Assembly: GCA_946699065.1 (NCBI GenBank)
Contig: CAMPDV010000271.1
Location: 310,001-374,000, forward strand
DNA length: 64,000 nt
Direction of reading: 5' to 3'
Origin: Loxodes magnus
Lineage: Eukaryota > Ciliophora > Karyorelictea > Loxodida > Loxodidae
Under the pieces are notes generated by a model. That model ran no database searches. It was not told the origin of the DNA and was given only the letters and a program-made list of their open reading frames with translations. This document shows, in pieces, positions 728-63,367 of this stretch. A program made the translations under genes and the position numbers. How positions within the stretch are numbered: the first letter of the stretch is position 1; every line of letters starts with the position of its first letter.

Positions 728-734
728 GAATTAA

Positions 735-2105: not shown

Positions 2106-2109
2106 TTTA

Positions 2110-3239: not shown

Positions 3240-4020
3240 CTTAATAACCTGGAAATTAATAAGAGTAACGAAAGCAAGACCTAAAGACAATCCATATAGA
3301 AACTCCAACCTCAAATGAAAAACCAAGGAAGCAGATGAAGTCTGCTTTACACCAGGAGGTATCGGGGTTCAACCCTTCTGGCCAGATGAACATGGAATAG
3401 CTCATAAAAGTGGTACTAAACCTCCAGGAAGAGGTTAAAAGCTTCGTAAGGAGAACACGAAGTTGACAGAGCAGATCTCTCATGAATTTAAGATACACTT
3501 GATCTTAGAATGGCCAATTAGGAAAGAGAGATTGATGCTTTATGATAGTACCAGCAAGAATAAAAAAGTTAGACAAAACTTTAGATACAATAAATTCAGA
3601 GCTAAAATACACAATTGGAATTTAAAATTTCAAGTCAACAACAAGTGGAAAAAATTGAAAAGGAACCTAACTAAAACTGCAAAATGGAGATTGAGAAAAC
3701 AGGAGGAAGCAAGTCAAACGGAAGAACAGCAAGGAAGATTAGATTTTTAAAGAAATGCTACCTTTGTTGCTAGCAAGGTCACTTATACAAGTAGTGCAAG
3801 AAATTTTATCAATTCAAGAAAAAATACTGAATCAAGGAAAATAGGAAAGAAAAATGCTGTTTTGCAATTGGGAAGGAGGAATCTATAAGAGAAAATTGAA
3901 TCAAGATACACTGAGACTGATTTTAACAAGACCTATTGGAAGAAGACGACAAGGAATAAAAAAATGGAGGAGAGATAAAACTTATAAACTTATTTTAAGC
4001 GGCAGATGTGAAATCTACTG
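3240..4020 (+). CDS. CCHC zinc-knuckle Gag-like protein, second family, copy 1
   Basis: With ciliate codons this region reads as a Gag-like protein: a polar N-terminal part (TPTSNEKPRKQMKSALHQEV), a long Gln-rich coiled coil, a basic stretch (RTARKIRFLKK) and the knuckle CYLCCQQGHLYKQC at 3756-3797, spacing CX2CX4HX4C. A Lys/Trp/Glu-rich tail follows. It differs in sequence from the knuckle gene at 1-533 and from those in the R units, so it is a separate family. The copy looks partly broken. It lies about 700 bp upstream of an LRR gene in the same orientation. A duplicate lies at 41.2-42.0 kb. Whether it belongs to a LINE, to LTR kin or to the host is not visible. Confidence 0.5.
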
Positions 4021-4499
4021 CTAAACAACATTAAATAAATTAAATATTAAATAAAAGAATGACTATATATAATAAAATAGTTAGTTTAAAATAATAAATA
4101 AAGGATTATAAAATAGTTCTCATAGATGAGGTTTATTTATTAGAATACTTTTATTTTAAGATATTATGAAGCTTTAAATTGGATTTTTAGTTTTAAGTTA
4201 TAATAAAAATGGAAGGAGATTAAAAGTAAAAGAGATGCTATTAAATTTAACTTGAAGGATAAGAAAAACTTTACAGTTCTGAGATGAAAACTTAAGTTAC
4301 AAGCAATAGTATGAAAACTCCTTATAATTAAGTTTCTTAAATTAAAGATTAAGAATAGCAATCTTCTATTTAAGATTCATCAACTTAATTAAATTAACTT
4401 TCTCTAAACTAAGAAAATTAAAATATCTAACCTAAAACAGTTAATAAAGAACAAAGCTAAAAGCAAGACTTAATTGAGTACTAAAACTAAATAGCTTAA

Positions 4500-4740
4500 T
4501 AATAAAATAAAGATACTTGCTAGAACCCCAATCCTTGCCATTAAGTATGAAGATATTCTTATATTCTCTAAGTAGTTTTTGGATTCCTTAGAAAAAGAGA
4601 AATTAGTAGCTTGCAATAAATAAATAAATATCTAAATCTCTTTAGATATAGATTTTAGATATTAAAACTAAAATAGTACAATGGAGATGATTGATATATC
4701 AAGAATAAAATGGAATGAACATTCAAATAAATAATTTATT
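4500..4740 (+). other. Coding-like segment just upstream of the LRR gene
   Basis: A frame with ciliate codons reads ARTPILAIKYEDILIFSKQF and then LDSLEKEKLVACNKQINI, protein-like in composition, and runs into the start of the LRR gene in another frame. It could be a 5' exon of the LRR gene or the end of a lost gene; no convincing splice sites were seen. Duplicated at about 42459-42699. Confidence 0.3.
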
Positions 4741-6104
4741 CTGAAGCTGAAAGAATAGACATTATTCCTAGTTCTTAATTCTCTGCTAGCTTAAATAATT
4801 AGATTTAGGAAATCTTCAGCAAAGTAATTTAGCAGAAATAAAACCTAAGAAAATAAAGTAATTTATTTGCAAACTTATCAGTTTTATATATATCTGAATT
4901 TGAATCTCTTAGTATCCAGGTTTTATCTAGATTTCCACTCTTCACTAGTTTACAAAAACTAATTTTACGAAATATTTGCTTAGAAGATTAAAATCTTAGT
5001 TTTCTACAAAATTTAGTTAATTTACAGGTAATTTAATTCTAAGACTTCAAAAACAAAAGCAAAATAAGAGGAAAGTTTCTAAGTTCCTTTTGCTTAAATC
5101 TAAATCTAAAAGTACTTAATTTAAGAAGCTAGTCTGTTTAATATGAGTTTATATAGGAATATTTACTTTAAAAAGGATAATTTATTGAAGATATTTAAAT
5201 AAACGGGAACTAATGAGCAGATAAATTTATTCATCTATGTCCCTCCTTAAATAAAATAGAACTGTAAAAATAGCTACCTTCTTTTGAATAAATAGATTAA
5301 ATAAATAGGAAAAGCTGGAAAAATTTATCTTTATCTTTCATAGATAAACAAAACAATACTGTCTTTTCTCAATTTTTTTCAAAGACTTTTACATAATTAG
5401 TTGAGATAGAAATAGCATTCTGTGAAAATTTTGATGGGGATAATTTAAAATAGTTACTATAGAGCACTCCTAATCTTAAGAAGTTAATATTAGAGTATTT
5501 AAGCAAACTATAAGAAAAAGATTTTTTATAAATAGGAGATTATGGGTAAAACTTTGAGTCTCTAGATATTGGATTTTCAAATGATATTTCCAATGAAACA
5601 TTGCAATATATTATTAGAAACTGCGTTAAGCTAAAGGAAGTTTCATTTACGGATTTAAAATAAATTAATAATAAAACACTATAAGATATAATTCAATAAT
5701 GTGAGGAAATAGAATCCCTAAGCTTAGCTTACTGCTAGTTCTCTGAATAAAACTAAATGTAAGAAATCATTAAAAAATAGAATTTTTAGAAATTATATTT
5801 TTAGGAGTGTAATTTGAATAATGAAGATGTAAAACTATTAGTAACTAGATGCAAAACTTTAAAATGCTTAAAATTGTATGGAAATAAGAGTGTTACACAA
5901 GAAGCTTTCCCTTTGCAAGATGAAAGAGGAGAAAATTATCCAATTTATAGAACTTTAAATTATTTAGGAATTCAAAATACTTAGATAAGTGAAGAGTGAG
6001 TAAAGTTAATAAAAAGACAGTTTAGAAATATAAAAATATAATAGAGCTATCAGGATAAAAATAGAATAATAGACTTTGAACTAAGAAGATTAGAGGTTGA
6101 TTGA
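4710..6104 (+). CDS. Leucine-rich-repeat protein, copy 1 (464 aa, ciliate code)
   Basis: ATG 4710 opens a frame of 464 codons ending at TGA 6102-6104 when TAA/TAG are read as Gln. The C-terminal two thirds is a series of 25-30-residue LRRs of the AMN1/F-box-LRR type, for example LKEVSFTDLKQINNKTLQDI, IESLSLAYCQFSEQNQMQEI and LKCLKLYGNKSVTQEAF. Internal TGA codons lie at 4716, 5214 and 5997, where Trp would give MEWTFKQ, NQWADKF and SEEWVKL. The first and third are also TGA in the paralogue on the minus strand at 15.9-17.3 kb. TGG occurs once (KSWKNL). LRR arrays bind proteins; the partner is unknown. No signal peptide or membrane segment is evident, so it is likely intracellular. No intron is needed. 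Confidence 0.72.
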
Positions 6105-6600
6105 ACTCTTTATAACTAAAATTAAATGATTAATGCTATAAATACATTAAATAAATATAAAATAAAGCTAATAATCAAATAAAACTATTTGAAAGTAAAA
6201 GTTTTAATTATTTACCAATATTTTAAATACCAATTCACCAAAATGAAAATAGATACCTATTTATTTTAACTTTAAGTTTGTCTTTGTATTTTAATCTATC
6301 AAAATTAAGTTTAAGGTTGAGATTTTATAGCTAAAATAAAAATGTAGTTATTTAAATTTAACAAATGGTATAGATGGTTTTTATATGTTTTAATCTAAAT
6401 AATATATTTAATAAATAAAGATTTTGGTTATTAAATAATTAAAGATAAAAGTAGCTAGAAAGCTTTATTAATTAATATCTTAAAAGATTAAATAATTAGA
6501 ACATATATTAAATTTAAAACATATATAAATAGACTATTAATTAAATTTAAATAATTCCTTATCATTATTTAACTTATAAACTACTATTTTATATATATTC
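6105..6600. other. AT-rich spacer
   Basis: No gene was recognised between the LRR stop and the next coding-like region. Duplicated at 44064-44559. Confidence 0.5.
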
Positions 6601-6609
6601 TTAATAACT

Positions 6610-7140
6610 ATGCCTACTTTGGACGAACAACTATCTCCTACTTAATCATTATTATCATTTGGCTAGAAAGTAACTAGATGTTGGACAATTGTATGGAGAA
6701 TCTAGTTTCGAGTTGTCATAATCCTAACTTGAGTTGAAATCATCTGTTCAAGTATTTGCTCTAGTGAATGAACTCCTACTTTGGTAAAAGTAATTTAAGT
6801 AATGTGAGAATAAAAATCTTAGAGAAGCCTCATTTGCCATCCTATATGAAAGATTGATAAGAATTGAAAAGGGGAAAATCCTTGCACAATTAAACTTCTA
6901 ATATGGAAAAAAAGAGTGATGATTTGAATTGAAAGATAAGAATTGAGTGAATGACAATATATAGAGGTCAAAGGATAAATTTATTTTTAGAAGCCTATTA
7001 AGCAGAAAATTAAAAAAAGTGAGCAAATTGAATAAATGACATTAATAGATCTTATGAAATATACCAGAAGTAAATCAAGAGTTCTAACTAAAAACTGTCA
7101 GAATTTAATCGAATTATGACTTTTTTTTAACTTTTATTAG
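6610..7140 (+). CDS. Unrecognised Trp-rich small protein, copy 1, probably frameshifted
   Basis: An opening ATG 6610 gives MPTLDEQLSPTQSLLSFG; the protein-like reading then continues one base out of frame from about 6665 as QLDVGQLYGESSFELSQSQ, ELKSSVQVFALVNELLLW and so on. The second part is mostly helical and charged and contains several TGA codons in Trp-like contexts, including two in a row (KKE-W-W-FELKDKN-W-VND). The 3' end was not fixed because TGA is ambiguous. No family was recognised. The duplicate at 44569-45099 looks identical, so the frame change is older than the duplication or reflects an unseen intron. Confidence 0.4.
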
Positions 7141-7144
7141 TAGG

Positions 7145-7790
7145 TTAATTGTGATGATCCTATTAAGGAGGATTAACGTAAATTTGACATTATTATATAT
7201 TTTATCTATTTTTAACATAAAACTTTTATATAAACAAAATAAATAAAATTAAAACTTGCTACTTAAAATTCTACATTGATCTACCTTTTTTAATTTAAAT
7301 TAAAGTCTTTAATACTATTTTTCGCTTAATCATAAATTTAATTTTTCTTTCTCGTTTGTTATCAAATTATAAATCTTTTATTTAAAGTTATGATGATTAA
7401 ACTTAAAATATCAGCTTACGAGGAATCAATTGTGTAACTAAGCATTGTAAACCTTAAGTTAATTTATTAAAGCACTAGATTCACTAAATTTATATTATTG
7501 CAAATTTATAAAAAAATATTACTTCTAAACAATTAAAAAGAGCTTAAGAAATTAATTCTTTAAATATGAGATTAAGATGTAAAATATATAATACTTATAA
7601 TACAAATCTAATTTATCTTACTATATATAAAATAAAAATATTACACAAAATACGTTTCCTTTATACGATGAAAGAGTAGAAATATTTTAATCTATAAATC
7701 TTTGCAGTATTTATTTATAAAAAATTAAATAAGTAAGCAGTATGTGTAAGAAATGAGAAGATAGTTTATTATTATTATTTTTAAAAGATC
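7145..7790. other. AT-rich spacer
   Basis: No gene was recognised. The stretch 7640-7700 weakly recalls the LRR gene (TACACAAAATACGTTTCC, then GATGAAAGAGTAGAAA, compare 5893-5940), so it may hold a trace of an LRR copy. Confidence 0.3.
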
Positions 7791-8078
7791 CTGTGTTCTA
7801 GTCAGTTGAGTAGGTAATCCGGTGCAGTCATATCTGCATTGCAAATACTCTTACAATAGGTGCCACCATAACAAGGAAAGACGTGCTCATTATGTAATAA
7901 GCCTTACTTGTTTGAGGGTTCACCCTATCGGTACGAGAGTTTGATTAGTAGCACCAATGTCCAGGTTTCAGAGTTATCCTGATCCACCTGTTACTAATTA
8001 TAGTAAATTTAGGTTTCTATATTAATCTTGATGATCCAAATAATGGTGCCACGCTAATTTAATTATTATTTATTTATA
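7791..8078 (+). mobile_element. SINE-like element S1, diverged copy
   Basis: Shares the order of motifs of S1: TAGTCAGTTGAGTAGG near the left end, GGTGCCACC, AAGGAAAGACGTGCTC, then TTTGAGGGTTCACCC, and a short 3' tail ATGGTGCCACGCTAATTTAA followed by TTATTTATTTAT. It is shorter than the S1 copies at 2.1 and 12.3 kb. The GNRA-type hairpin is not preserved. Duplicated at 45750-46037. Confidence 0.45.
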
Positions 8079-8479
8079 TAAAAATAGAATTTTAAATGAA
8101 ACAGATAATAATTGAATAAACCTTAGATTAAAGAATTTAGAGGGTTGAGGATATAAAAATCTTGAAACAAATAAATTATTTTATTTAATAATTAGTTTAA
8201 AATTAACTTCTTAAAAAAGTAATAAACAAGAATATAAAATAACTTAAAAGTTAAATAAACTATTAACAAATTTTAAACTTTTAAAAAGCAATTATTTTGT
8301 TAAGATTCTACTAATGAAAAATATAAATATATCTAAGATGTTTTCACTTTAAAATATGATTTATGCAACTAACTAAAATTAAATATCTAATAATCTGAAT
8401 AAACAATTAGCATCTTTTTAGTAAAAAAATAATTGAGAGATTAGATTAGATTAAATTAAAATATTGAGATTATTTGATT

Positions 8480-9000
8480 TAGATTGATTTCATAACTATT
8501 GGATTAGTTCCTAGATTTGTTATTAAAATTATTATCTTAAGACTTAACTCTTAGCTTCATCTTAAGGTTATCTTTATACGTATTATTGAATTTAAATGCC
8601 TATATTTTATTGATTGATGTACTTATTTATTATAATAGCAAAATCTTAAAGATACGATCTTTACTCTGCACTCGTACTTATGATCTCCTAAAATACTTGA
8701 AATGAAACTTCCTATATGATCATATAATTAAAGTTGCTGTCATAATAATTCAACGTTCTTACTCTCTTAGGCTCATTCTACAATTAGTCAAGCTCTTTTA
8801 CCAAGTCTTTTAAACATTTATATTTCTATTACACTCCTAACTATTTACTACTTTAAGAGTCTTTATTTACTAATATTTCAAACTAATTGTATTAATCTTC
8901 TTTAAGAAATCCTTAAATTAGAATGTGATCTTCTAATAATAATTAACTTCTTTCTGAGATAGCATCCAAGTAACTTATTTCAATATTTCATTAAAAGGTT
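8480..9000 (-). pseudogene. Decayed LRR-like remnant, copy 1
   Basis: On the minus strand short patches resemble the LRR genes nearby (for example LKVVNSQECNRNINV against LYFQECNLNNEDV, and SLTNCRMSLRE), but they fall in different frames and no long frame joins them. A Gln-rich open frame over 8480-8840 (CLKDLVKELDQLQNEPKRVR) may be chance. The duplicate at about 46430-46950 differs by substitutions and a 13-base deletion, which fits relaxed constraint. The assignment is tentative. Confidence 0.3.
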
Positions 9001-9049
9001 TTTAGTAATCTATACATGCTTTAATGATCCTTACTATTTTGGACTTATA

Positions 9050-10392
9050 AAACTTAATTTTATAAGTCTTAAAGCAAATAGGCTAGTTATTCGAATATAT
9101 TTATTACATAAAATATTCTTTATATTAAAATCTTTCTAATTATATTCCTCTACACTAGCTAACTAATTGTGAATCCTCCATTTATATATCTGTTTCTTTT
9201 AGAAATATTTTAAAACATTTTACACATTTAATACAGCCACAACTTGATACTTTGGGACTTCGATAATTTTAATAAAATTAATACTAGCAACTTTAAGGGA
9301 TGGTAAATCCATTACTTATATATAGTTAAAATTTTAATTAAATAAATACTATAAATTACAATGAAAATTAAATTAAAAAAAATAAATATTAATTAAAAAT
9401 ATAAATTAATCTAAATTATGGGATTATGTTGATAAAGAAACTTATTTAAAATAATTAAAATTAATTTAAAAATCTATAAAAAAGACAATAATATAACACA
9501 ACAAATATTAACAATAATTAAAATGTTTTGAAATAAAAAATACTTTTATAAAGTACTATATAGATCTCTTTATAATAAAAACATTTTCTTAAAATTAAAT
9601 ATTAAAAAATATATTTCCTTATCATGATAAAATAACTTCAATAAAATAGATTTTAATAATTTAAAAAATTAACTTAAACGAGGTAATTTATTATAAAAAT
9701 AAAACATTATTAAAAACTTAAATTACAACTAATAAACACAAGCACAGTTTAACAAATCTTAAAAAAATTTTAAATTTTCATTAACTTAAAATTTTTTTAA
9801 TTTACACATAAAAAAACTTTTAAAATTTAAATGAACTATCAATTTTAACAAAATAACCCATAAAATATCCAAAATAAAAAAACTATTTGATCTTTAAATG
9901 TCTGCAAACACTTTCCTTCTTTACTAAATAAAAGTAAATATAAATTGAAATTTGTAAAGTTCATCAGACTAAATTTTAAATATATCTGCTTGCAAATAAT
10001 CTATTATTTTTAAATCCAGAAATAAACCTTAAAAAATGTAACAAAAGCCATCACTTATAAAACAAAAATTAAAATTATTTTTAGAAAAATATTTATTAAG
10101 CATAAAACTATTAAACGTTTTCTTACCTTTGACAGAAATTATGTTATAGTAAGAAAAAAATACTTTTTGTATATGTAAAACCTTCATATCTCCTTTAAAA
10201 AGATTAAGAATCTTTAATGAAACAAAGATGCATGAAAGGAGAAAAGCTGCTTTCACTAAATTTTTTTGAAAGTCATAAAGTAATAAAAGGCTTTTATACA
10301 AGTAAAACAGAAAATTTCGGTCAAATTATTTATAAAAAATCGTAAAAAAATCGAGAAAAAAAACTTTGAAGTAAATAATAATCGAATGAAGT
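9050..10392. other. Extremely AT-rich stretch before the R-unit array
   Basis: Mostly A and T homopolymer-rich sequence. A 90-codon frame at 10029-10301 on the minus strand (MYKSLLLLYDFQKNLVKAAF...) is open in both copies of X but differs at several residues and is not convincing as a gene. The right end carries TTGAAAAAAAAGAT, the boundary sequence of the R units. Confidence 0.4.
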
Positions 10393-11314
10393 TGAAAAAA
10401 AAGATAAAATAAAAAAGGCAATTCAAATAAAAAAAGAAAAAAATCAAAAAGATTGAAATAAATAGAAAATAAATTAGACATAATCAAATTAGGTATAACA
10501 ATTTACTAAACTTGACGTAAAAATAGAAAAAATATTAAAAAAACAAAAGAATAAATAAATTAAAAATAAAAATTATAGATAAAAAAAACTTTAAAAGTAA
10601 CTCTTAAAAAGATTTAAATGTAAAAAAACAATAAAAAGAACGAAAAGAAAACCAGAAAAAAAATCCTTATGAAAATCTACAAAAAGAAAGAAAAGCTTTT
10701 AATTAAATTATTTCATAAATAATTAAATTAAATCCTATTTCCTTTAAAATACAAGAATATTACTACGTAAATAAATATTTTATCCCTTTTCATTATTGAT
10801 CATTAATTTTTTTCTATTTTCTATTTATTATTTATTTTTTTATATATATTTTTTAAATTTGTTATTTTTTTTCTTCTTTTCGTCGTATTTTTCTTATTTA
10901 AAAATTAAATATTTATTTTTTTATTTTAAAATGCTTTTTCAATACTTTTTTGAATTTTTTGAATTTTACTTTTCTATATTATTATGATTTTTTTATATAT
11001 TTTTTTTAATCAGCAGATGTACATCCAATTTTTATGGTACATGATTTTATACTTTTTTTCAATAAAGATGATTAAATTATTAAAGAGATTTTTAATCTTA
11101 TTTTATTTATTTTTTTTATTTTTTTTCTGATTTATTTACTTAAGCACGTTTTTAAAATTTTCTCTATTTTTGGTTATTTTCTTGTCTCTTTTTTTATTAT
11201 TTTAAAAAACTAGAATATTTTAATTGCTTTAATTCTAATAATAAATAGCTATTTATCCATTTTTTCATTATTTTTCATATTAAATATAAATTTTTTTATT
11301 CTTTTTTTAAATTT

Positions 11315-11357
11315 ATAACTAAAATTTATAACTAAAATTTATAACTAAAATTTATAA
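11315..11357 (+). repeat. 13-bp minisatellite, 3 copies
   Basis: Three copies of TAACTAAAATTTA, ending in TAATTA. The same site has two copies in unit B and eight in unit D, and is deleted in unit C. Confidence 0.9.
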
Positions 11358-11519
11358 TTATTTTTAGTAAAAGTATTCCAAATGTTTCTCTCCTTTTTTC
11401 TTAGTTAAAAATCACTAAAGAAATATTTAAAAATAAAAATAGAAAATTACTTGTTAAAAATCTCTTCACAAACGGTATAATCTTAGTCAAGCTACAATTA
11501 ATAAAAAATACTTTAAGAA

Positions 11520-12130
11520 CTCAAATTCATGCAATTAGAAAATTTTAAACTTTTAAGAACTGTATTAGAACTAGATGAAAATTGAACACCTTATGACTAA
11601 TTAATAAGAAAAAAAAATTAGTGAATTATCAGGATACAATAATTTTAAACAAAATTTAATCAATTCGCAGAGTTTACTGAAAGCGTATTACTGTAAAAAT
11701 GGAGATGAATGATTCGATGGATGTAGAGCAACAGCCTGCTACAAATTATATTCCTTATTGGTAAATAATGAGATGTTGAAACTGCAAACTAGCAGGGCAC
11801 AAAGATAGAAGCTGTTTAAATTATAATAGAAATAAAAGAAAATAGTAGAAAAATAATTTGAAAATATTTTCAGAATCTTTTGCAATCAAGAAGGTAAACT
11901 CTACAGGAAAAAATACTACAGATAAACAAAGAAGCTCAAAAAATATAGAATAAATTAACGAATTTAATAAGAAATGAATGGGAATCGATTTATCAGAAAC
12001 TCTCAGAAAAATAGATTAAAAATCCTTAGAACGTATGATAAACAAGACCCAAGTAAATATGAAGTCTCTTTTATTTAACATTAAACTTTTGATTTTATTA
12101 ACCAAATAAAGGTAACATTACGTAAATAAA
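11520..12130 (+). CDS. CCHC Gag-like gene of R unit A (broken)
   Basis: A coiled-coil N-terminal part (MQLENFKLLRTVLELDEN) precedes MEMNDSMDVEQQPATNYIP (ATG 11699) and a knuckle at 11774-11815 with spacing CX2CX4HX4C (C..NCKLAGHKDRSC). A basic tail follows. The family matches the minus-strand gene at 22.9-23.4 kb in order and motif. Copies lie in units B, C and D; D is the least broken, A looks interrupted. Presumed role: RNA-binding Gag or ORF1 protein of a retroelement of unknown class. Confidence 0.5.
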
Positions 12131-12345
12131 TTAAATAAATAAAATTTAAATTACTTTAGATTTAAATTAGAAAATTTAGATTAATAAAATTATTTTTTGT
12201 GATATTTCTCATTAAAATTAATATAAAAATTATTTATTTATATATTTTAAAAAAATATTTCAAAAATATTTTTTGTTTATTTATGTTTTTTTATTGATTT
12301 TATTATACTCTTTTTTCATTCTGCATTATTATTGGATTAAAAAAT

Positions 12346-12731
12346 ATGGATGTAGTCAGGAAAGCTTGTAGATATTCTGGTGTAACTACGTTGAAAGTAA
12401 TCTCACTTAGGAAAGTGTGGACAAGCTCGAAAGAGACAAGTCTAGCTTGCTCGAGGGTTCTGTGTATGAATGCTTTACTATCTGGCCTATTAATTTAATT
12501 ACTAATTTTTATTTGTATCTTATTAAAGGAGACTGAACATTTGATTCGAGGTTTTAAGGAACATTTTTAACAAGCAGATTCTCCATTTAAAGAAACTAAT
12601 GTCCCTCATTGAACGATTAGAATAATAACAACGAATATGAGAACATTTTTTTAATATACAATATTAATAATGAAATTTCTTTGTGCCAATAAGTTGCTAC
12701 GCGCTTTATAATCATATTTTTATTATTTATT
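12346..12731 (+). mobile_element. SINE-like element S1 in unit A
   Basis: Contains TGTAGTCAGGAAAGCTTGTA near the left end, GTGGACAAGCTCGAAAGAGA (hairpin CTC-GAAA-GAG, a GNRA loop), CTCGAGGGTTCT, AACAAGCAGATTCTCCATTT, and the 3' tail AAGTTGCTACGCGCTTTATA followed by an ATTT-rich run. It aligns along its length with the 2.1-kb copy but is clearly diverged, the loop changing from GGAA to GAAA while staying GNRA. Confidence 0.6.
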
Positions 12732-12865
12732 TTTTATTTAATATATTAAAAAATCAATTCTTTATAGTTTCTAGACGATAATTTTGAGTATTAATTTGAT
12801 AAAGAAGAGTATCAATCTTAAATTATTTTTAATTATATTTAAATTTATTATATAAATAAATAGAG

Positions 12866-13172
12866 AGGAGCAATCCTCCAACTGAAACTGACTTAAACTC
12901 TGGTATCAGGAAGTACCTCATAGGCGATGAACAGCCAAGAGAAGAGAAGACAAGATCGAAGAGGCATCAAGTAACATTAATGATGAAAGATGCTAGATGC
13001 TCAGGTCTCTTAAGGTAGAACTCCGATCACGATCCTATAGAAGAAAAACTCACAAGGAAATGCTAGCACTGTGGAAGACTTCATCAAAGAATTTTTTTAA
13101 CTTTAAAAATCTTTAATAAAGAACTTCGCATCATTGAGGTGCTACACATTCTATAATCTAATTTATTTATAT
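12866..13172 (+). mobile_element. SINE-like element S2 in unit A
   Basis: A GC-richer island of about 300 bp (CAATCCTCCAACTGAAACTG ... GGTATCAGGAAGTACCTCAT ... GATCACGATCCTATAG) with no protein frame. It ends in TCATTGAGGTGCTACACATT followed by CTATAAT and an ATTT-rich tail, the same 3' motif as S1 and S3, although its body is unrelated. Copies at 51.17 and 58.50 kb. Confidence 0.5.
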
Positions 13173-13633
13173 GATATTTAATTAATTTTTATTTCTTTAT
13201 TAGAAATAAATTTAAAGTTAAAGTTTCTTTACTTTCTCTTAATTTTTCTTTTATTACTATTTTTATAGGTTGGTATTCTTATGTTAAAAATTCTCTTTAG
13301 TTTTCATTTTAAAATATGCTCTAATTTATTTAAAATGTAATATTCAGTTATAATCAACCTTATAAAAAATATAATATTATATAATTAAAATAATTAAAAA
13401 AATTAAGAATTTAGTAAAAATGTAAATTATTTAATTATTTAGATTTTTTTAATTGCTAAACTTTCATTAAAAAATAAGCTTCTGATCATTTAAATTTTAC
13501 TAAATTGTAAAGAATATTTGCTGCAAAATATTAATTATCTATAAATTATTTTATGAAAAATAGCATATGATAAATGTTATTTTCATTACTTATTATATTT
13601 TTAAATTAGATTCGATTCAAATAATAAATTTTC

Positions 13634-14291
13634 CTTAAAAAGCAGCAGGTCTTTTGCAAAAGTCTACCCAGTAATTGAGCCCACTATTCTTGTAAAATTC
13701 CTTTATCACATGCCAAAGTTTGAATATCCTCAGTCAGCATCTTATAAATTTCTCCAAAAGTAAATTGTCTTCTATTCTTTTATTTTTTTTGAATCTTTAA
13801 TAATGTCTTATTGGGTATATTTCAGAATTAAAAAACAAAATTTCTTCTTCATTTTATTTTCATTTATCTAATTTGTGAATTCCTTAGATATTATTTCTAT
13901 TGGAATTGCTTTTTTAGACAATTTATTGCTATTGATGTACTTATAATTATGAAATCATCTTCTTTTTTTTAGCCTTTTTTCTTAATCTTTATTCTTTAGT
14001 ATCATTTAACTGCTTCTTTTTCACTATATTGAGCCATTGTTATAAATCTTTATCTAACTCTTTTATCTTTTGTTTTATACTTTTCTTTAGACTTAAAACA
14101 TAGTATGAGCATATTTCCATTCATAAATTAATAGATATTATGCTAGAATTTTTTCAACTGCAAATATAAAAAACGACATAGCTTATTAATCGGAAAATTA
14201 TTTATTATTGTTATTTCTATTCTATTTCAAGGATTTGGTCTTACTTAATTTTACTTAGGGAATTTTATTTTATTTTATGAAATCCTGTCAT
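13634..14291 (-). pseudogene. Decayed coiled-coil gene in unit A
   Basis: ATG 14291-14289 opens MTGFHKIKQNSLSKIKQDQ and runs about 125 codons through a charged helical part (KIKELDKDLQQWLNIVKKKQ). Further protein-like patches (EDDFIIISTSIAINCLKKQF; NSEIYPIRHYQRFKKN; FGEIYKMLTEDIQTLACDKG) lie in different frames, so the gene is broken several times or spliced. A 5' block like that of the gene at 533 lies upstream at 14538-14481. No family recognised. Copies in units C and D. Confidence 0.4.
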
Positions 14292-14480
14292 TTTTTGTTT
14301 TTTAAAGCTGTTTCAGCTTTTGATTATAAAGATATGTTTTTTTACCTGCTTTGAAGAAATTTAGTAATTAATTATGCAAAAAACTTTTCCTAATTTTTTA
14401 TTTATTTTCTTTGCTAATTAATTGAAGATCTTACGAAGGTAAAATAGTGACTTATAAAATATGTGCTAAGGAAGAGATGC

Positions 14481-14538
14481 TTTTTTTCTCTCCTGCTTTG
14501 AGGAAATGGTGTAAAAAGCCTACTTGAAGCTTTATAAT
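14481..14538 (-). promoter_or_regulatory. Conserved 5' block, unit A
   Basis: On the minus strand TTCAAGTAGGCTTTTTACAC, CATTTCCT, CAAAG and AGAGAAA match the order of the block at 727-671. It lies about 190 nt upstream of ATG 14291. Confidence 0.35.
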
Positions 14539-14989
14539 ATTTGTATTAATTTTAAAAAAGATTAGAAATTTGATTAAAAAGTATATAATTTTGTATTATA
14601 ATTTGATATATCTTACAATATATTTAGGTATATTTATTATTTTACTTAGCTTGTGATTTAAAAAATTAGATTATTATAATTATAATTCTAACTTGTTCGT
14701 AAATAGTTATTAAATATCTTTAAACTATACAATTAAAAGTAATTAACTTAAAGCTAAGACTAATAAATGATTTAATAGTTTACTTTAATATAATAATTAT
14801 TGTATGAAGCTCTAATTTAATTAAGATACTTCATTTAATATAAGTTTAAGTGCTAATAAATTAATAACCTAATTTAATTTATATAATCCTTATAATTCTC
14901 TAAAATCAATGTATTATTTATTATGCTTTTAAAAAATCTACATTTCTTCCAAAATGTCTCTTCTAAGCAGGATTCAAACGATTCAATTA

Positions 14990-15660
14990 TTATTACCAAA
15001 ATTTGCTTTAAAACTCAAAATTATGTAATAGGAGAATTTTAAATTTTTAAGAAACCTTTAATAGCTCGAAGGAAAAATAGCATTACTAATGTCCAACATA
15101 TAAAAATTAAAAACAGAAAATAATTTCTCAGCAAAGATAAGAATTGAATAACTAGAAACTAAAGAACTCAATCAATTTGCAGAGCTTACCGAAATCATAT
15201 TTCTTTAAAAATGTCAATGAATGGTCTGATTGAAGTAGAACCTAAAGATATCTTAAAAAATTTTTCTTATATAAAAAAAATGCTAATATTGCAGAAGATT
15301 TGGATTTATTCTATGATACTGCTTATATTTCAAACGAAAGCAAGAACAAGAAAATTTAAAATTAAGATAATCTTTTAGTAATTTAAATTGTATTCCAAAA
15401 GGGCTATTATACATGAAAGAAATGTACAAAGGGTGTGAAATCTCGATGGTCATTGCTCATGCTTAGCAAAGAAGAATCTAAAATATGATTGGAATTGAAC
15501 TCAACTTAAGCAAGATATCTTTAATAAAAAAGAGTTAAAGTAGTACAGCATATATGTATTAAAAGAAAATAATCCTGAAGAAGACTGGAAATAGGATATT
15601 TAACAAAATTAATAAAATTTACAGTGATGAACCTGGTTGAAAGATGAAATCACTATAATT
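14990..15660 (+). pseudogene. Second Gag-like remnant in unit A
   Basis: Begins with a coiled-coil stretch matching the other R-unit Gag (MQQENFKFLRNLQQLEGKI against MQLENFKLLRTVLELDEN) and then MSMNGLIEVEPKDI at ATG 15211, which parallels MEMNDSMDVEQQP. The knuckle region is degenerate. Broken; it looks like an older, diverged paralogue of the gene at 11.5-12.1 kb. Copies at about 53305-53975 and 60635-61305. Confidence 0.4.
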
Positions 15661-15871
15661 AATTATTATTATTATAAAATTATAATTATTGCAATTTTTT
15701 ATTTTTTATAGTTTAAATTATAAAAGTAATTTTTTTTTTGAAGATACTAAATATTAAAAAATAAAGTTACGCATATTTAAAATGATTTATATAATAAATT
15801 TTTATATTTATACATTAATTAATTTAATTTTTAAATTCAAATACTTTTTAGATTTAATTCTAACTATTTCT

Positions 15872-17251
15872 TCAAAAATCAAAATCATTCAAGATGAAGT
15901 CTATTTCTTCGTTCTATTCAACTTTATTTGTAAATATTCTTATATTTTTAAGTTATTTTTTCATTTCTTTTGCTCATTATAGACTTATTTATGTTTAACT
16001 GATACCTAAGTACTTTAATGATTTATAAATTTGATATATTTCACCTTATTCATTTGAAATTATAAAAGCTTCTTGTGTTATCTTATCATTTCCATTCAGC
16101 TCCAATTCATTCAAATATTCACAGTTCATTATTATTTTTTAAATATCTTCATTATTCTAATTGCATCCTTAAAGATTTAAACTTTTAAGACCTTAAAGGG
16201 AAACTAATTAGTTTATGAAACTTTATTCTTAGAAACTACAATAAGCTAAATTTAATTCTTTCAATTAGGTATTGTTCTAATTTATAGTTTTCAACGTTTT
16301 AATACTTAGCTCCTTTATACTTATCAAAGTAATACTTCATAGTTTTTAGCAACTTTAAAAAATTTGCTATAGAGTTTCGTTTGAAATGGCTTTTATGAAC
16401 TTTATTGAGATTTTTTCGTAATTCTAGCCAAAACTAGCTACTTGTAAAAAATCTTCATCCTTTAACTGTCTTAATGACATTAAAGTTAAATCTCTTAAGT
16501 TAGGTGTATTCTATAACATTAGAAGTAAGCTTTAGCCATTGAAACTGCTACAGCATTTTATTTATATAACTTCTAGCTATACAAATTACATAGGAAAAAT
16601 TTAACTAAAAATTTAACTATTTAAATGTAATAAAGACAGAGTTTTCAAATTTAATCTATTAAATCTTTCAAAATCTTGCTTAGAAAAATTAATTTTTCCT
16701 TATAAACAAATATTACTTAAAGAAGGACACAAATCAATAAACTTTTCTATGTTTTTGTTTTCATTAATGTCTATTTATTCAACTAAGGCTCCTTTTACCC
16801 TCAAATAATCTCTTAATAAGTCATAATTAATTTATTAACTATTGATGAATATCAGTTTTAGATTTAAGTTTAAGCAATAATCTATTAGAAAATTTCCTTT
16901 TAATTAGTTGCTCTTCTCATTATAAAATTCAATAAGCTGTAATCTAGTGAGATTCTATAGAAAGCTTAAGTTTTAGTCATCTAATTTATCGTTAATAATT
17001 AACTCTTTTAAACTTTTAAACAGAGAAAGATTAAGTAAAGTGAAGTTGTTTAACTCTAAAAATCCTTCTATATAAATTTCGCTTAAATGAATAAAATTAT
17101 TTTCTTACTTTCTTAGTTTTTGTCTTATTTAAATAGCCTTAGTGAATGCTTCTTAAATTTGCTTATTTAAACTAACCGAAAAATGTTAGCTTAAAGTTAA
17201 ATCTAAAAACTATACTTCACAAAGAATCATTTACTTGAATATTCATTCTAT
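15872..17251 (-). CDS. LRR protein, R-unit family, unit A
   Basis: On the minus strand a frame with TAA/TAG as Gln runs from about 17251 to TGA 15874-15872 and aligns end to end with the LRR gene at 4710-6104 (for example DLCPSLSNI against HLCPSLNKI; LNLAYCSFQEQSF against LSLAYCQFSEQNQ; KYLGISQTQISL against NYLGIQNTQISE). In-frame TGA lies at 17245-17243 (E-W-IFKQ) and 15976-15974 (SLQ-W-AKEM), both matching TGA in the other paralogue, and at 16339-16337 (QKL-W-SIT), where the paralogue has Lys. The codon aligned with the other gene's ATG is ATA, so its start is uncertain. Probably an intracellular LRR protein-binding protein. Confidence 0.65.
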
Positions 17252-18598
17252 TTTATTTTTTATTTATTATAAGTTTCCTTTATATTATGGTATTACTAGC
17301 AAAGCAAATTTATAATTAAAGCGATATAAATATCTATTTACTTATTACAAGTGACAAATATCTTTATTTCTAAGAAATTCAAATATATGAGTGAGAATGT
17401 AAATTTTCTTTCATATTGCGTGTTAAATAAATGCTTAAGTGTTTGGCTTTTCTTCTTCTTTATTTTTTTGTAATAAGCTTTAATTTATAATACCTTAATG
17501 AGTTTATTAATTTTCTACGTTTTTATCATATTCAAGCAAAATAGAAGAATTAATAACCTAATTATTTTATTTTTCCTTTATATTTTCTTACTACTGATTT
17601 TAAATGCTTTAGAATTATTGATTTTCTTAAGTTGAAAATTCTAAGTTTGAAAGATTGTTGCTTAACTATTCCATATAAGTTATTATAATATTTTAAATTA
17701 TAAATTTATAACAAAAATATATTGAAAAAAGATAAAATAAAAAAGGCAATTCAAATAAAAAAATAAAAAAGATTGAAATAAATAGAAAATAAATTAGACA
17801 TAATCAAATTAGGTATAACAATTTACTAAACTTGACGTAAAAATAGAAAAAATATATAAAAAACAAAAGAATAAAAAAAATTAAAAAGTAAATCTTAAAA
17901 AGATTTAAATGTAAAAAAAAAGCAATAAAAAGAACGAAAAGAAAAGATGAAAAAAAATCCTTATGAAAATCTACAAAAAGAAAGAAAAGCTTTTAATTAA
18001 ATTATTTCATAAATAATTAAATTAAATCCTATTTCCTTTAAAATACAAGAATTTTACTACGTAAATAAATATTTTATCCTTTTTCATTATTGATCATAAG
18101 TTTTTTACTATTTTCTATTTATTAATTATTTATTTTTTTTATATTTTTTTTTTTAATTTGTAATTTTTTTTTTTCTTTTCGTCGTATTTTTTTTTTTTTA
18201 AATTAAATATTTATTTTTTTATTTTAAAATGTTTTTTCAATACTTTTTTGAATTTTACTTTTCTATATTATTATGATTTTTTTATATATTTTTTTTAATC
18301 AGCAGATGTACATCCAATTTTTATGGTACATGATTTTATACTTTTTTTCAATAAAGATGATTAAATTATTAAAGAGATTTTTAATCTTATTTTATTTTAT
18401 TTTTTTATTTTTTTTCTGATTTATTTACTTAAGCACGTCTTTAAAATTTTCTCTATTTTTGGTTATTTTCTTGTCTCTTTTTTATTATTTTAAAAAACTA
18501 GAATATTTTAATTGCTTTAATTCTAATAATAAATAGCTATTTATCCATTTTTTCATTATTTTTTATATTAAATATAAATTTTTTTATTCTTTTTTTAA

Positions 18599-18631
18599 AT
18601 TTATAACTAAAATTTATAACTAAAATTTATA
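18599..18631 (+). repeat. 13-bp minisatellite, 2 copies
   Basis: Two copies of TAACTAAAATTTA at the same place as the three-copy array of unit A. Confidence 0.85.
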
Positions 18632-18799
18632 ATTATTTTTAGTAAAAGTATTTCAAATGTTTCTCTCCTTTTTTCTTAGTTAAAAATCACTAAAGAAATA
18701 TTTAAAAATAAAAATAGAAAATTACTTGTTAAAAATCTCTTCACAAACGGTATCATCTTAGTCAAGCTACGATTAATAAAAAATACTTTAAGAACTCAA

Positions 18800-19410: not shown

Positions 19411-19594
19411 TAAATAAAATTTAAATTACTTTAATTTTAAATTAGAAAATTTAGATTAATAAAATTATTTTTTGTGATATTTCTCATTAAAATTAATATA
19501 AAAATTATTTATTTATATATTTTAAGAAAATATTTAAAAAATACTTTTTTATTTATTTCTGTTTTTTTATTTATTTTATTATATATTATTTTTT

Positions 19595-22118: not shown

Positions 22119-22129
22119 CTTTTTTTGTA

Positions 22130-41979: not shown

Positions 41980-42668
41980 CTAAACAACATTAAATAAATT
42001 AAATATTAAATAAAAGAATGACTATATATAATAAAATAGTTAGTTTAAAATAATAAATAAAGGATTATAAAATAGTTCTCATAGATGAGGTTTATTTATT
42101 AGAATACTTTTATTTTAAGATATTATGAAGCTTTAAATTGGATTTTTAGTTTTAAGTTATAATAAAAATGGAAGGAGATTAAAAGTAAAAGAGATGCTAT
42201 TAAATTTAACTTGAAGGATAAGAAAAACTTTACAGTTCTGAGATGAAAACTTAAGTTACAAGCAATAGTATGAAAACTCCTTATAATTAAGTTTCTTAAA
42301 TTAAAGATTAAGAATAGCAATCTTCTATTTAAGATTCATCAACTTAATTAAATTAACTTTCTCTAAACTAAGAAAATTAAAATATCTAACCTAAAACAGT
42401 TAATAAAGAACAAAGCTAAAAGCAAGACTTAATTGAGTACTAAAACTAAATAGCTTAATAATAAAATAAAGATACTTGCTAGAACCCCAATCCTTGCCAT
42501 TAAGTATGAAGATATTCTTATATTCTCTAAGTAGTTTTTGGATTCCTTAGAAAAAGAGAAATTAGTAGCTTGCAATAAATAAATAAATATCTAAATCTCT
42601 TTAGATATAGATTTTAGATATTAAAACTAAAATAGTACAATGGAGATGATTGATATATCAAGAATAAA

Positions 42669-44063
42669 ATGGAATGAACATTCAAATAAATAATTTATTC
42701 TGAAGCTGAAAGAATAGACATTATTCCTAGTTCTTAATTCTCTGCTAGCTTAAATAATTAGATTTAGGAAATCTTCAGCAAAGTAATTTAGCAGAAATAA
42801 AACCTAAGAAAATAAAGTAATTTATTTGCAAACTTATCAGTTTTATATATATCTGAATTTGAATCTCTTAGTATCCAGGTTTTATCTAGATTTCCACTCT
42901 TCACTAGTTTACAAAAACTAATTTTACGAAATATTTGCTTAGAAGATTAAAATCTTAGTTTTCTACAAAATTTAGTTAATTTACAGGTAATTTAATTCTA
43001 AGACTTCAAAAACAAAAGCAAAATAAGAGGAAAGTTTCTAAGTTCCTTTTGCTTAAATCTAAATCTAAAAGTACTTAATTTAAGAAGCTAGTCTGTTTAA
43101 TATGAGTTTATATAGGAATATTTACTTTAAAAAGGATAATTTATTGAAGATATTTAAATAAACGGGAACTAATGAGCAGATAAATTTATTCATCTATGTC
43201 CCTCCTTAAATAAAATAGAACTGTAAAAATAGCTACCTTCTTTTGAATAAATAGATTAAATAAATAGGAAAAGCTGGAAAAATTTATCTTTATCTTTCAT
43301 AGATAAACAAAACAATACTGTCTTTTCTCAATTTTTTTCAAAGACTTTTACATAATTAGTTGAGATAGAAATAGCATTCTGTGAAAATTTTGATGGGGAT
43401 AATTTAAAATAGTTACTATAGAGCACTCCTAATCTTAAGAAGTTAATATTAGAGTATTTAAGCAAACTATAAGAAAAAGATTTTTTATAAATAGGAGATT
43501 ATGGGTAAAACTTTGAGTCTCTAGATATTGGATTTTCAAATGATATTTCCAATGAAACATTGCAATATATTATTAGAAACTGCGTTAAGCTAAAGGAAGT
43601 TTCATTTACGGATTTAAAATAAATTAATAATAAAACACTATAAGATATAATTCAATAATGTGAGGAAATAGAATCCCTAAGCTTAGCTTACTGCTAGTTC
43701 TCTGAATAAAACTAAATGTAAGAAATCATTAAAAAATAGAATTTTTAGAAATTATATTTTTAGGAGTGTAATTTGAATAATGAAGATGTAAAACTATTAG
43801 TAACTAGATGCAAAACTTTAAAATGCTTAAAATTGTATGGAAATAAGAGTGTTACACAAGAAGCTTTCCCTTTGCAAGATGAAAGAGGAGAAAATTATCC
43901 AATTTATAGAACTTTAAATTATTTAGGAATTCAAAATACTTAGATAAGTGAAGAGTGAGTAAAGTTAATAAAAAGACAGTTTAGAAATATAAAAATATAA
44001 TAGAGCTATCAGGATAAAAATAGAATAATAGACTTTGAACTAAGAAGATTAGAGGTTGATTGA
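42669..44063 (+). CDS. LRR protein, copy 2 (464 aa)
   Basis: Duplicate of 4710-6104, with the same ATG, the same three internal TGA codons and the same final TGA at 44061-44063. No difference from copy 1 was noticed, so the duplication is recent or the copies are kept alike by conversion. Role as for copy 1: an LRR protein-binding protein of unknown partner. Confidence 0.7.
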
Positions 44064-54178: not shown

Positions 54179-55567
54179 TCAAAAATCAAAATCATTCAAG
54201 ATGAAATCTATTTCTTCGTTCTATTCAACTTAAGTTGTTATTATTCTTATATTTTTAAGTTGCTTTTTCATTTCTTTTGCTCATTATAGACTTATTTATG
54301 TTTAACTGATATCTAAATACTGTAATGATTTATAAATTTGATATATTTCACCTTATTCATTTGAAATTATAAAAGCTTCTTGTGTTATCTTATCATTTTC
54401 ATTCAGCTCCAATTCATTCAAAATTTCACAGTTCATTATTATTTTTTAAATATCTTCATTATTCAAATTGCATCCTTAAAGATTTAAACTTTTAAGACCT
54501 TAAAGGGAAACTAATTAGTTTATGAAACTTTATTCTTAGAAACTACAATAAGCTAAATTTAATTCTTTCAATTAGGTATTGTTCTAATTTATAGTTTTCA
54601 ACGTTTTAATACTTAGTTCCTTTATACTTATCAAAGTAATACTTCATAGTTTTTAGCAACTTTAAAAAATTTGCTATAGAGTTTCGTTTGAAATGGTTTT
54701 TATGAAATTTATTGAGATTTTTTTGTAATTTTAGCCAAAACTAGCTACTTGTAAAAAATCTTCATCCTTTAACTGTTTTAATGACATTAAAGTTAAATCT
54801 CTTAAGTTAGGTGTATTCTATAACATTAGAAGTAAGCTTTAGCCATTGAAACCGTTACAGTATTTTATTTATATAACTTCTAGCTATACAAATTACATAG
54901 GAAAAATTTAACTAAAAATTTAACCATTTCAATGTAATAAAGACCCTAAAATTAGAGTTTTCAAATTTAATCTATTAAATCTTTCAAAATCTTGCTAAGA
55001 AAAATTAATTTTTCCTTATAAACAAATATTACTTAAAGAAGGACACAAATCAATAAACTTTTCAACGTTTTTGTTTCCATTAATGTCTATTTATTCAACT
55101 AAGACTCCTTTTACCCTCAAATAATCTCTTAATAAGTCATAATTAATTTATTAACTATTGATGAATATCAGTTTTAGATTTAAGTTTAAGCAATAATCTA
55201 TTAGAAAATTTCCTTTTAATTAGTTGCTCTTCTCATTATAAAATTAAATAAGCTGTAAACTAGTGAGATTCTATAGAAAGCTTAAGTTTTAGTCATCTAA
55301 TTTATCGTTAATAATTAACTCTTTTAAACTTTTAAACAGAGAAAGATTAAGTAAAGTGAAGTTGTTTAACTCTAAAAATCCTTCTATATAAATTTCGCTT
55401 AAATGAATAAAATTATTTTCTTACTTTTTTAGTTTTTGTCTTATTTAAATGGCCTTAGTGAATGCTTCTTAAATTTGCTTATTTAAACTAACCGAAAAAT
55501 GTTAACTTAAAGTTAAATCTAATAACTATACTTCACAAAGAATCATTTACTTGAATATTCATTCTAT
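54179..55567 (-). CDS. LRR protein, R-unit family, unit C
   Basis: Counterpart of 15872-17251, final TGA at 54181-54179 and the conserved E-TGA-IFKQ codon at 55561-55559. It is nine bases longer than the unit A gene (an in-frame length change near 54945), and most differences from A are substitutions, so the frame has been kept. No ATG stands at the position used by the 4710 gene, so the start is open. Confidence 0.62.
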
Positions 55568-56880
55568 TTTATTTTTTATTTATTATAAGTTTCCTTTATA
55601 TTATGGTATTGCTAGCAAAGCAAATTTATAATTAAAGCGATATAAATATCTATTTACTTATTACAAGTGACAAATATCTTTATTTCTAAGAAATTCAAAT
55701 ATATGAGTGAGAATGTAAGTTTTCTTTCATATTGCGTGTTAAATAAATGCTTAAGTGTTTGGCTTTTCTTCTTCTTTATTTTTTTGTAATAAGCTTTAAT
55801 TTATAATATCTTAATGAGTTTATTACTTTTCTACGTTTTTATCATATTCAAGCAAAATAGAAGAATTAATAACCTAATTATTTTATTTTTCCTTTATATT
55901 TTCTTACTACTGATTTTAAATGCTTTAGAATTATTGATTTTCTTAAGTTGAAAATTCTAAGTTTGAAAGATTGTTGCTTAACTATTCCATATAAGTTATT
56001 ATAATATTTTAAATTATAAATTTATAACAAAAATATATTGAAAAAAAGATAAAATAAAAAAGGCAATTCAAATTAAAAAATAAAAAAATAAAAAAGATTG
56101 AAATAAATAGAAAATAAATTAGACATAATCAAATTAGGTATAACAATTTACTAAACTTGACTTAAAAATAGAAAAAATATATAAAAAACAAAAGAATAAA
56201 AAAAATTAAAAAGTAAATCTTAAAAAGATTTAAATGTAAAAAAAAAAACAATAAAAAGAACGAAAAGAAAAGATGAAAAAAAATCCTTATGAAAATCTAC
56301 AAAAAGAAAGAAAAGTTTTTAAATTAAATTATTTCATAAATAATTAAATTAAATAATATTTCCTTTAAAATACAAGAATATTACTACGTAAATAAGTATT
56401 TTGTCCTTTTTCATTATTGATCATTAATTTTTTACTATTTTCTATTTATTATTTATTTTTTTAAATACTTTTTTTAATTTGTAATTTTTTTTCTTCTTTT
56501 CGTCGTATTTTTCTTATTTAAAAATTAAATATTTATTTTTTTATTTTAAAATGTTTTTTCAATACTTTTTTGAATTTTTTGAATTTTACTTTTCTATATT
56601 ATTATGATTTTTTTATATATTTTTTTTAATCAGCAGATGTTGAGATACCACCCAATTTTTATGTTACATTATATTATATTTTTTTATTTTTTCTGATTTA
56701 TTTACTTAAGCAAATCTTTAAAATTTTCTCTATTTTTGGTTATTTTCTTGTCTCATTTTTTATTATTTTAAAAAACTAGAATATTTTAATTGCTTTAATT
56801 CTAATAATAAATAGTTATTTATCCATTTAACATTAATTTTTATATTAAATATAAATTTTTTTATTCTTTTTTTAAATTTA

Positions 56881-61508: not shown

Positions 61509-62897
61509 TCAAAAATCAAAATCATTCAAGATGAAATCTATTTCTTCGTTCTATTCAACTTAAGTTGTTATTATTCTTATATTTTTAAGTTGCTTTTTCA
61601 TTTCTTTTGCTCATTATAGACTTATTTATGTTTAACTGATATCTAAATACTGTAATGATTTATAAATTTGATATATTTCACCTTATTCATTTGAAATTAT
61701 AAAAGCTTCTTGTGTTATCTTATCATTTTCATTCAGCTCCAATTCATTCAAAATTTCACAGTTCATTATTATTTTTTAAATATCTTCATTATTCAAATTG
61801 CATCCTTAAAGATTTAAACTTTTAAGACCTTAAAGGGAAACTAATTAGTTTATGAAACTTTATTCTTAGAAACTACAATAAGCTAAATTTAATTCTTTCA
61901 ATTAGGTATTGTTCTAATTTATAGTTTTCAACGTTTTAATACTTAGTTCCTTTATACTTATCAAAGTAATACTTCATAGTTTTTAGCAACTTTAAAAAAT
62001 TTGCTATAGAGTTTCGTTTGAAATGGTTTTTATGAAATTTATTGAGATTTTTTTGTAATTTTAGCCAAAACTAGCTACTTGTAAAAAATCTTCATCCTTT
62101 AACTGTTTTAATGACATTAAAGTTAAATCTCTTAAGTTAGGTGTATTCTATAACATTAGAAGTAAGCTTTAGCCATTGAAACCGTTACAGTATTTTATTT
62201 ATATAACTTCTAGCTATACAAATTACATAGGAAAAATTTAACTAAAAATTTAACCATTTCAATGTAATAAAGACCCTAAAATTAGAGTTTTCAAATTTAA
62301 TCTATTAAATCTTTCAAAATCTTGCTAAGAAAAATTAATTTTTCCTTATAAACAAATATTACTTAAAGAAGGACACAAATCAATAAACTTTTCAACGTTT
62401 TTGTTTCCATTAATGTCTATTTATTCAACTAAGACTCCTTTTACCCTCAAATAATCTCTTAATAAGTCATAATTAATTTATTAACTATTGATGAATATCA
62501 GTTTTAGATTTAAGTTTAAGCAATAATCTATTAGAAAATTTCCTTTTAATTAGTTGCTCTTCTCATTATAAAATTAAATAAGCTGTAAACTAGTGAGATT
62601 CTATAGAAAGCTTAAGTTTTAGTCATCTAATTTATCGTTAATAATTAACTCTTTTAAACTTTTAAACAGAGAAAGATTAAGTAAAGTGAAGTTGTTTAAC
62701 TCTAAAAATCCTTCTATATAAATTTCGCTTAAATGAATAAAATTATTTTCTTACTTTTTTAGTTTTTGTCTTATTTAAATGGCCTTAGTGAATGCTTCTT
62801 AAATTTGCTTATTTAAACTAACCGAAAAATGTTAACTTAAAGTTAAATCTAATAACTATACTTCACAAAGAATCATTTACTTGAATATTCATTCTAT
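61509..62897 (-). CDS. LRR protein, R-unit family, unit D
   Basis: Counterpart of 54179-55567, apparently identical, final TGA at 61511-61509 and conserved in-frame TGA at 62891-62889. With the copies in A and C and the two copies at 4.7 and 42.7 kb, this makes five full-length LRR genes in the window. Confidence 0.62.
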
Positions 62898-63367
62898 TTT
62901 ATTTTTTATTTATTATAAGTTTCCTTTATATTATGGTATTGCTAGCAAAGCAAATTTATAATTAAAGCGATATAAATATCTATTTACTTATTACAAGTGA
63001 CAAATATCTTTATTTCTAAGAAATTCAAATATATGAGTGAGAATGTAAGTTTTCTTTCATATTGCGTGTTAAATAAATGCTTAAGTGTTTGGCTTTTCTA
63101 CTTCTTTATTTTTTTGTAATAAGCTTTAATTTATAATATCTTAATGAGTTTATTACTTTTCTACGTTTTTATCATATTCAAGCAAAATAGAAGAATTAAT
63201 AACCTAATTATTTTATTTTTCCTTTATATTTTCTTACTACTGATTTTAAATGCTTTAGAATTATTGATTTTCTTAAGTTGAAAATTCTAAGTTTGAAAGA
63301 TTGTTGCTTAACTATTCCATATAAGTTATTATAATATTTTAAATTATAAATTTATAACAAAAATATA

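Follow-up and report, generated by a model that had tools for sequence, protein, structure and literature searches.

Introduction

Are genes that carry in-frame TGA codons broken, or is TGA in these genes an amino acid? This question is raised by a 64,000-nucleotide stretch of the genome of the karyorelict ciliate Loxodes magnus (assembly GCA_946699065.1, contig CAMPDV010000271.1, positions 310,001 to 374,000 of the forward strand), which we call the window and whose own numbering is used throughout. Two diverged genes with leucine-rich repeats (LRR), here gene 1 and gene 2, lie in it on opposite strands and both contain internal TGA codons (Table 1). An initial annotation, drawn from the sequence letters, had proposed that TGA encodes tryptophan and TAA and TAG glutamine in this DNA, that both genes also end at TGA, and that the karyorelict and Condylostoma nuclear codes provide a precedent. 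L. magnus is reported to use NCBI table 27, with UGA read as Trp or stop according to its distance from the poly(A) tail, and its macronuclear assembly is described as 706 Mbp long and repeat-rich (PMC11441545). Related codes in which UAR is Gln and UGA is Trp or stop have been described for Condylostoma and Parduczia (PMC4967479, Swart et al. 2016) and for Plagiopyla (PMC10553269, PMC11687900).

Our analysis leads us to the view, to which we give a probability of about 96%, that the window is written in the karyorelict nuclear code of L. magnus, in which TAA and TAG are Gln and TGA is Trp internally and a stop at the 3' end, and that both genes belong to a large F-box/LRR family which has been shaped by selection on its proteins and which writes Trp more often as TGA than as TGG.

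Results

Comparison of genes 1 and 2

The TGA codons to which attention had been drawn, at 4716 and 5997 in gene 1 and at 17245-17243 and 15976-15974 in gene 2, are present as described, and both genes do end at TGA (6102-6104 and 15874-15872). The starts assigned to them, 4710 and 17251, proved to lie too far downstream. A self-comparison of the window in which every codon was read as sense revealed upstream homology between the genes, which extends in frame to about 4539 and 17422 and takes in a further shared TGA (4548; 17413), with candidate ATG codons at 4209 and 17674. The two shared TGAs of the initial annotation are real, but their number is three, and private TGAs that it did not mention lie at 4692 and 5214 in gene 1 and at 16339 in gene 2, opposite TAA, AAC and AAG respectively. 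TGG accounts for one of the 1231 codons across the two genes.

Over 556 aligned codons, nonsynonymous divergence (dN) is 0.47 and synonymous divergence (dS) 1.73, with 227, 175 and 284 differences at the three codon positions, and each of the six segments delimited by the TGAs, the last 33 codons among them, shows less nonsynonymous than synonymous change. When the nucleotides are aligned blind to frame, the phase does not change between 4532 and 6129: the alignment, with an identity of about 60%, passes through the TGAs, its gaps are multiples of three in length, and after the terminal TGA the phase shifts. That three TGAs should coincide among the five of gene 1 and the four of gene 2 within 556 codons has a hypergeometric P of 1.4e-6. 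The window also offers an internal control in a pair of diverged large genes, which shift phase against each other repeatedly at an identity comparable to that of the LRR pair. The constant phase, the low level of nonsynonymous change and the behaviour of this control together show that selection has maintained the LRR frame for a protein whose reading continues across the internal TGAs and ends at the last one. The earlier suggestion that TGAs shared between the paralogues are not the product of random decay is therefore borne out.

Tandem copy B differs from gene 2 by one indel, in frame, across 1,800 coding bases and by 33 across 6,363 bases elsewhere (P = 0.002), a contrast on which we do not rely because P rises to 0.07 once homopolymer surroundings are set aside. 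The two copies of gene 1 lie within about 7 kb of DNA that is identical save for one 1-base indel, so their identity is uninformative.

Codon inference from the gene family

Which residue TGA stands for is not fixable from genes 1 and 2 alone, because their private TGAs, together with those of copies B and C, face codons for Gln, Asn, Lys and Leu. We turned to the family to which they belong, as represented in the assembly of L. magnus itself (705,730,643 bases in 7,843 contigs). This family appears to be very large, with 2,937 first-look candidates, and each of the 73 that were scored holds between 1 and 10 in-frame TGAs. Fifty-eight of the 73 loci were used, 50 fetched by position and 8 taken from the search output, the other 15 looking near-identical or partial when their scores and coordinates were inspected by eye. 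For the alignment to gene 2, TGA was masked as X in every row and in gene 2 itself, which kept Trp residues from being drawn into register with one another. Near copies of gene 2 (L002-L008) and three rows that shared 85% or more of their codons with a retained row (win_g1, L057 and L033) were dropped, which left 49 non-redundant rows (<85% codon identity), gene 2 itself (L001) among them.

The initial annotation had set the presence of Trp in relatives at the shared TGA positions as a test beforehand, and within this family of the same genome the outcome is clear. At column 88, which holds the first shared TGA, 31 of 46 rows have TGA, 6 have TGG and 9 have another codon; at column 144 the corresponding figures are 37, 11 and none (48 rows), and at column 567 they are 30, 5 and 12 (47 rows), so that TGA or TGG fills 120 of the 141 cells. 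Over the 219 TGA cells of the alignment, Trp has a log-likelihood ratio of +429 and every other residue a negative one (Phe, the next, -49; Arg -75; Cys -202), which places Trp about 478 log units above Phe. When each codon in turn was left out and inferred from the rest, TAA was assigned to Gln (+902), TAG to Gln (+420) and TGA to Trp, and the procedure was right for 56 of the 61 codons represented by 20 cells or more, the errors being AGA, AGG, ATG, CAT and GCT. All 49 rows hold in-frame TGA, and the ratio of TGA to TGG among them is 219:70, which makes TGA the commoner Trp codon. Both proposed assignments, TGA to Trp and TAA and TAG to Gln, thus stand.

Introns lying over the shared TGAs were considered as a separate explanation and rejected, the shared TGAs being situated within stretches over which genes 1 and 2 align in one frame. 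Of 59 aligned rows, 58 stay in the same frame throughout their match to gene 2; the exception is L057, later removed as a near-duplicate, and L012 appears frameshifted near its end.

Synthetase genes

Evidence from outside the family comes from four synthetase matches to Pfam PF00579 in the assembly, two of which carry one internal TGA each. In a tyrosyl-tRNA synthetase the codon stands at 'YLIEI[TGA]KAAGMD', where the best-domain alignments of all three printed chains (two apparently of one protein) have Trp, and in a mitochondrial-type tryptophanyl-tRNA synthetase it stands at 'GAIQQ[TGA]INLQ', where two of three printed chains have Trp. The frames of these two genes and of L062 are open to a TGA shortly past the domain, that is, in three of the four synthetase genes; L061 has no clear end. 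An internal TGA on a Trp position, with another TGA soon after the domain, implies that TGA most likely acts as both Trp and stop within one gene, to judge from these frames.

Gene ends

Two of the 49 family rows do not reach the C-terminal region. Among the 47 that do, 37 have a TGA beyond column 580, the first of which falls at columns 590-612 in 33 rows; the stop of gene 2 is at column 601. TGA counts near the stop are partly fixed by how the gene end was chosen, and the other two reassigned codons were also counted. Per 370 cells, in successive tens of codons from the stop upstream, TAA occurs 7, 13, 16 and 31 times and TAG 2, 8, 18 and 15 times. UGA and UAA, and not UAG, are reported as depleted about 20 codons before the stop in L. 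magnus (PMC11441545); TAA thins out here in agreement with that report for UAA, whereas TAG thins out here as well. Taken together, the comparisons of sequence show that TGA is a sense codon, that it specifies Trp, and that genes also end at TGA.

Weighing of the explanations

Could TGA instead be a stop only, and the LRR genes decayed pseudogenes with inherited or independently gained TGAs? The window does hold clearly decayed material, namely the frameshifted large genes and gag-like copies of which one has a TGA opposite TTA and the other is frameshifted, and the private TGAs of the LRR genes stand opposite unrelated codons, as decay might leave them. Against this, genes 1 and 2, with about 60% of their nucleotides identical, share a single frame for 1.6 kb and show less nonsynonymous than synonymous change throughout, the family has Trp at the shared columns with TGG as the main alternative to TGA, and the synthetase genes also carry TGA at Trp positions. 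On these grounds we rejected the pseudogene explanation, to which we give almost no credence. It is just as improbable that TGA is a sense codon for some other residue, such as Cys as in Euplotes, selenocysteine or Arg, or that it is read through in particular genes. The two window genes by themselves would allow another residue, since they cannot fix it and their private TGAs lie mostly opposite polar residues, but TGG is the sole common alternative at the three shared columns and the masked alignment scores Trp at +429 compared with -202 for Cys and -75 for Arg. Gene-specific readthrough is likewise difficult to reconcile with in-frame TGA in 49 of 49 family rows and in two other genes.

A number of observations weigh against our view of the window. 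The family query carried Trp at the TGA positions, which may have introduced a small bias into the 73 matches. The private TGAs, copies B and C included, face the Gln, Asn, Lys and Leu codons already mentioned, and in the synthetases the third printed tryptophanyl chain has Phe, and the weaker second domain of the third tyrosyl chain Leu, at the TGA position. Genes 1 and 2 do not hold a constant phase in the Q-rich N-terminus, before position 4532. The dN/dS ratio of 0.68 for copy B against gene 2 is not significantly below 1 (P = 0.22), which leaves recent constraint on the pair unproven. Coding GC is 24% in gene 1 and 22% in gene 2, compared with a mean of 33.5% for L. magnus coding sequences (PMC11441545). 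The thinning of TAG before the stop is not reported for UAG in that paper. ARAGORN, applied to the 64-kb window only, found no tRNA there. Finally, 10 of the 47 family rows (L012, L017, L025, L032, L035, L036, L038, L043, L050 and L051) run beyond the usual end with no in-frame TGA over a further 58-94 codons.

Inspection by eye of two of these ten, L017 and L050, puts a TAA opposite the terminal TGA of a related member; only these positions are telling, because TAA is frequent in AT-rich DNA. The rows without a terminal TGA may reflect stop loss or UAA acting as a stop. One conceivable extension is that UAA is still a position-dependent stop in a sizeable minority of genes, being Gln or stop by context, which would move the code toward the Condylostoma type; we regard this as unlikely. 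The abstract of Seah et al. 2022 reportedly mentions a small minority of transcripts with UAA as stop, so that at most the extent of UAA termination would be new if it were true.

Nature of the LRR genes and their copies

Pfam recognises LRR clearly in genes 1 and 2; an F-box-like match in gene 2 (E 4.6e-4) is below the curated cut-off, and none was reported for gene 1. A profile built from the two genes matches the LRR domains of the PDB chains FBXL2 and FBXL17 (E 9.9e-19 and 9.1e-17) and other F-box/LRR chains, and from family membership a role as substrate adaptors is plausible for the predicted proteins. Gene 2, used as the query in a word-based search of proteins, retrieved no relative from a collection that may contain few eukaryotes. 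The AlphaFold model, made from two sequences only, has a mean predicted local distance difference test score (pLDDT) of 53 and is confident in the LRR part only; it is no help on the code question because all three shared Trp sit in parts with pLDDT below 50. An origin of the window in Tetrahymena germline DNA was considered and rejected, the chromosome breakage motif of that DNA being no commoner here than expected by chance.

Because the window contains large duplications, gene 1 occurs twice in it and gene 2 is accompanied by two tandem copies. Segments 1-10413 and 37961-48363 are 99.4% identical; segments 10396-19593, 49645-57949 and 56041-63999 are about 95% identical, with 99.3% identity between the last two. 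The nearly difference-free stretch of about 7 kb points to a duplication of very recent date, to gene conversion or to a repeat in the assembly. The 13-bp tandem repeat AAATTTATAACTA at 11309-11357, 18597-18632 and 56874-56987 has 2.8 to 8.8 copies, and its copy number differs between duplicated segments.

Table 1. Coordinates of the LRR genes, their TGA codons, their copies and the large-gene pair in the window.
Feature	Position	Strand	Remarks
F-box/LRR gene 1	4209..6104	+	631 codons and TGA stop; internal TGA at 4548, 4692, 4716, 5214, 5997; TGG once; 4209 is a candidate in-frame ATG
F-box/LRR gene 2	15872..17674	-	600 codons and TGA stop; internal TGA at 17413, 17245, 16339, 15976; no TGG; 17674 is a candidate ATG
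Shared TGA 1	4548..4550	+	pairs with 17413-17411; just ahead of the F-box-like segment
Shared TGA 2	4716..4718	+	pairs with 17245-17243
Shared TGA 3	5997..5999	+	pairs with 15976-15974
Terminal TGA, gene 1	6102..6104	+	acts as stop; frame conservation with gene 2 gone just beyond
Terminal TGA, gene 2	15872..15874	-	acts as stop
Gene 1, second copy	42168..44063	+	offset +37,959; coding stretch without differences
Gene 2, tandem copy B	54179..55990	-	five internal TGA, one opposite a TTA of gene 2
Gene 2, tandem copy C	61509..63320	-	coding region one substitution away from copy B; same TGA opposite the gene-2 TTA
Diverged large-gene pair	26000-29100 and 34700-37600	+ and -	about 66% identical over 2.2 kb; mutually frameshifted

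Remainder of the window

The initial annotation had also drawn on two further places. It had placed the TGG of KYWDLISPFEQ in one large gene against a TGA in the other, and 'NY[TGA]DFITPFEQ' is indeed present opposite; the pair carries little weight because the large genes are frameshifted against each other many times and look decayed in their sequence. Neither has a Pfam match at E 0.01 on its strand. The double TGA cited in a gene at 6.6 kb likewise exists (6917-6922), in a frame without a Pfam match at E 0.05, and it could equally be a tandem stop.

Gag-like coiled-coil open reading frames with a zinc-knuckle motif lie at about 3-720, 37963-38680 and 21500-22300, all on the minus strand, with TGA or frameshifts within them. 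The motif is a sub-threshold zf-CCHC match in the first two and was seen by eye in the one at 21.5 kb; these frames are probably degraded remains of retroelements. Pfam searches at E 0.01 or 0.05 gave nothing useful in six frames of 1-4.9, 6.0-10.4, 10.4-15.3, 20.0-24.9 and 29.8-34.7 kb, in the plus frames of 25.0-29.9 kb or in the minus frames of 34.0-37.8 kb. An Rfam scan gave nothing useful, and neither did a search of viral contigs, in which two of the patterns contained Trp and Gln; back-translation of these presumably followed the standard code, and relatives could have escaped.

Discussion

The dual meaning of TGA in this window is that of the already described karyorelict code, so that our result is a confirmation and not a discovery. 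What it does provide is the confirmation of an ambiguous code, with one codon for both Trp and stop, from genomic DNA alone and in a fast-evolving gene family. Genes of this kind resemble pseudogenes when translated under table 6. The F-box/LRR family, whose members differ in how they end, also represents a natural series for the study of stop recognition and of termination at UAA.

How one codon might be read in two ways is suggested by the literature. A tRNA-Trp(CCA) with a 4-bp anticodon stem has been found in Loxodes (PMC13092985), and such a near-cognate tRNA would be the species that reads UGA, with closeness to the poly(A) end deciding for termination; a short 3' UTR is a further trait ascribed to this code.

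Considered against known proteins, the likeness of these genes to FBXL-type proteins such as FBXL2, FBXL17 and SKP2 consists of the LRR domain profile match together with the sub-threshold F-box-like match in gene 2; the Loxodes genes differ in having a Q/N-rich N-terminus and in belonging to a large multi-copy family. They also look intronless, unlike the LRR genes of Tetrahymena thermophila, 80% of which have at least one 90-bp exon (PMC6564038), and this likewise speaks against a Tetrahymena origin of the window. The few recognisable genes in the scanned stretches of the window fit the repeat-rich genome described for L. magnus (PMC11441545).

With regard to the code itself, the closest counterpart is table 27 of Loxodes and Parduczia, with the same use of TAA and TAG as Gln and of TGA as Trp inside genes and stop at their end, and this is the karyorelict precedent that the initial annotation had rightly named. 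We found no certain difference from it, the only lead being the 10 of 47 rows without a terminal TGA, two of them with TAA there. The Condylostoma magnum code (table 28) shares UAR as Gln and UGA as Trp or stop by position, but UAA and UAG also terminate in that organism (PMC4967479, PMC10553269), whereas 37 of the 47 Loxodes family rows carry a TGA beyond column 580, and termination at TAA or TAG may occur among them as well. Plagiopyla frontata also has UAR as Gln and UGA predicted as both Trp and stop; internal UGA is given for 3 of 240 query proteins there (PMC10553269), compared with the TGA:TGG ratio of 219:70 in the 49 Loxodes family rows.

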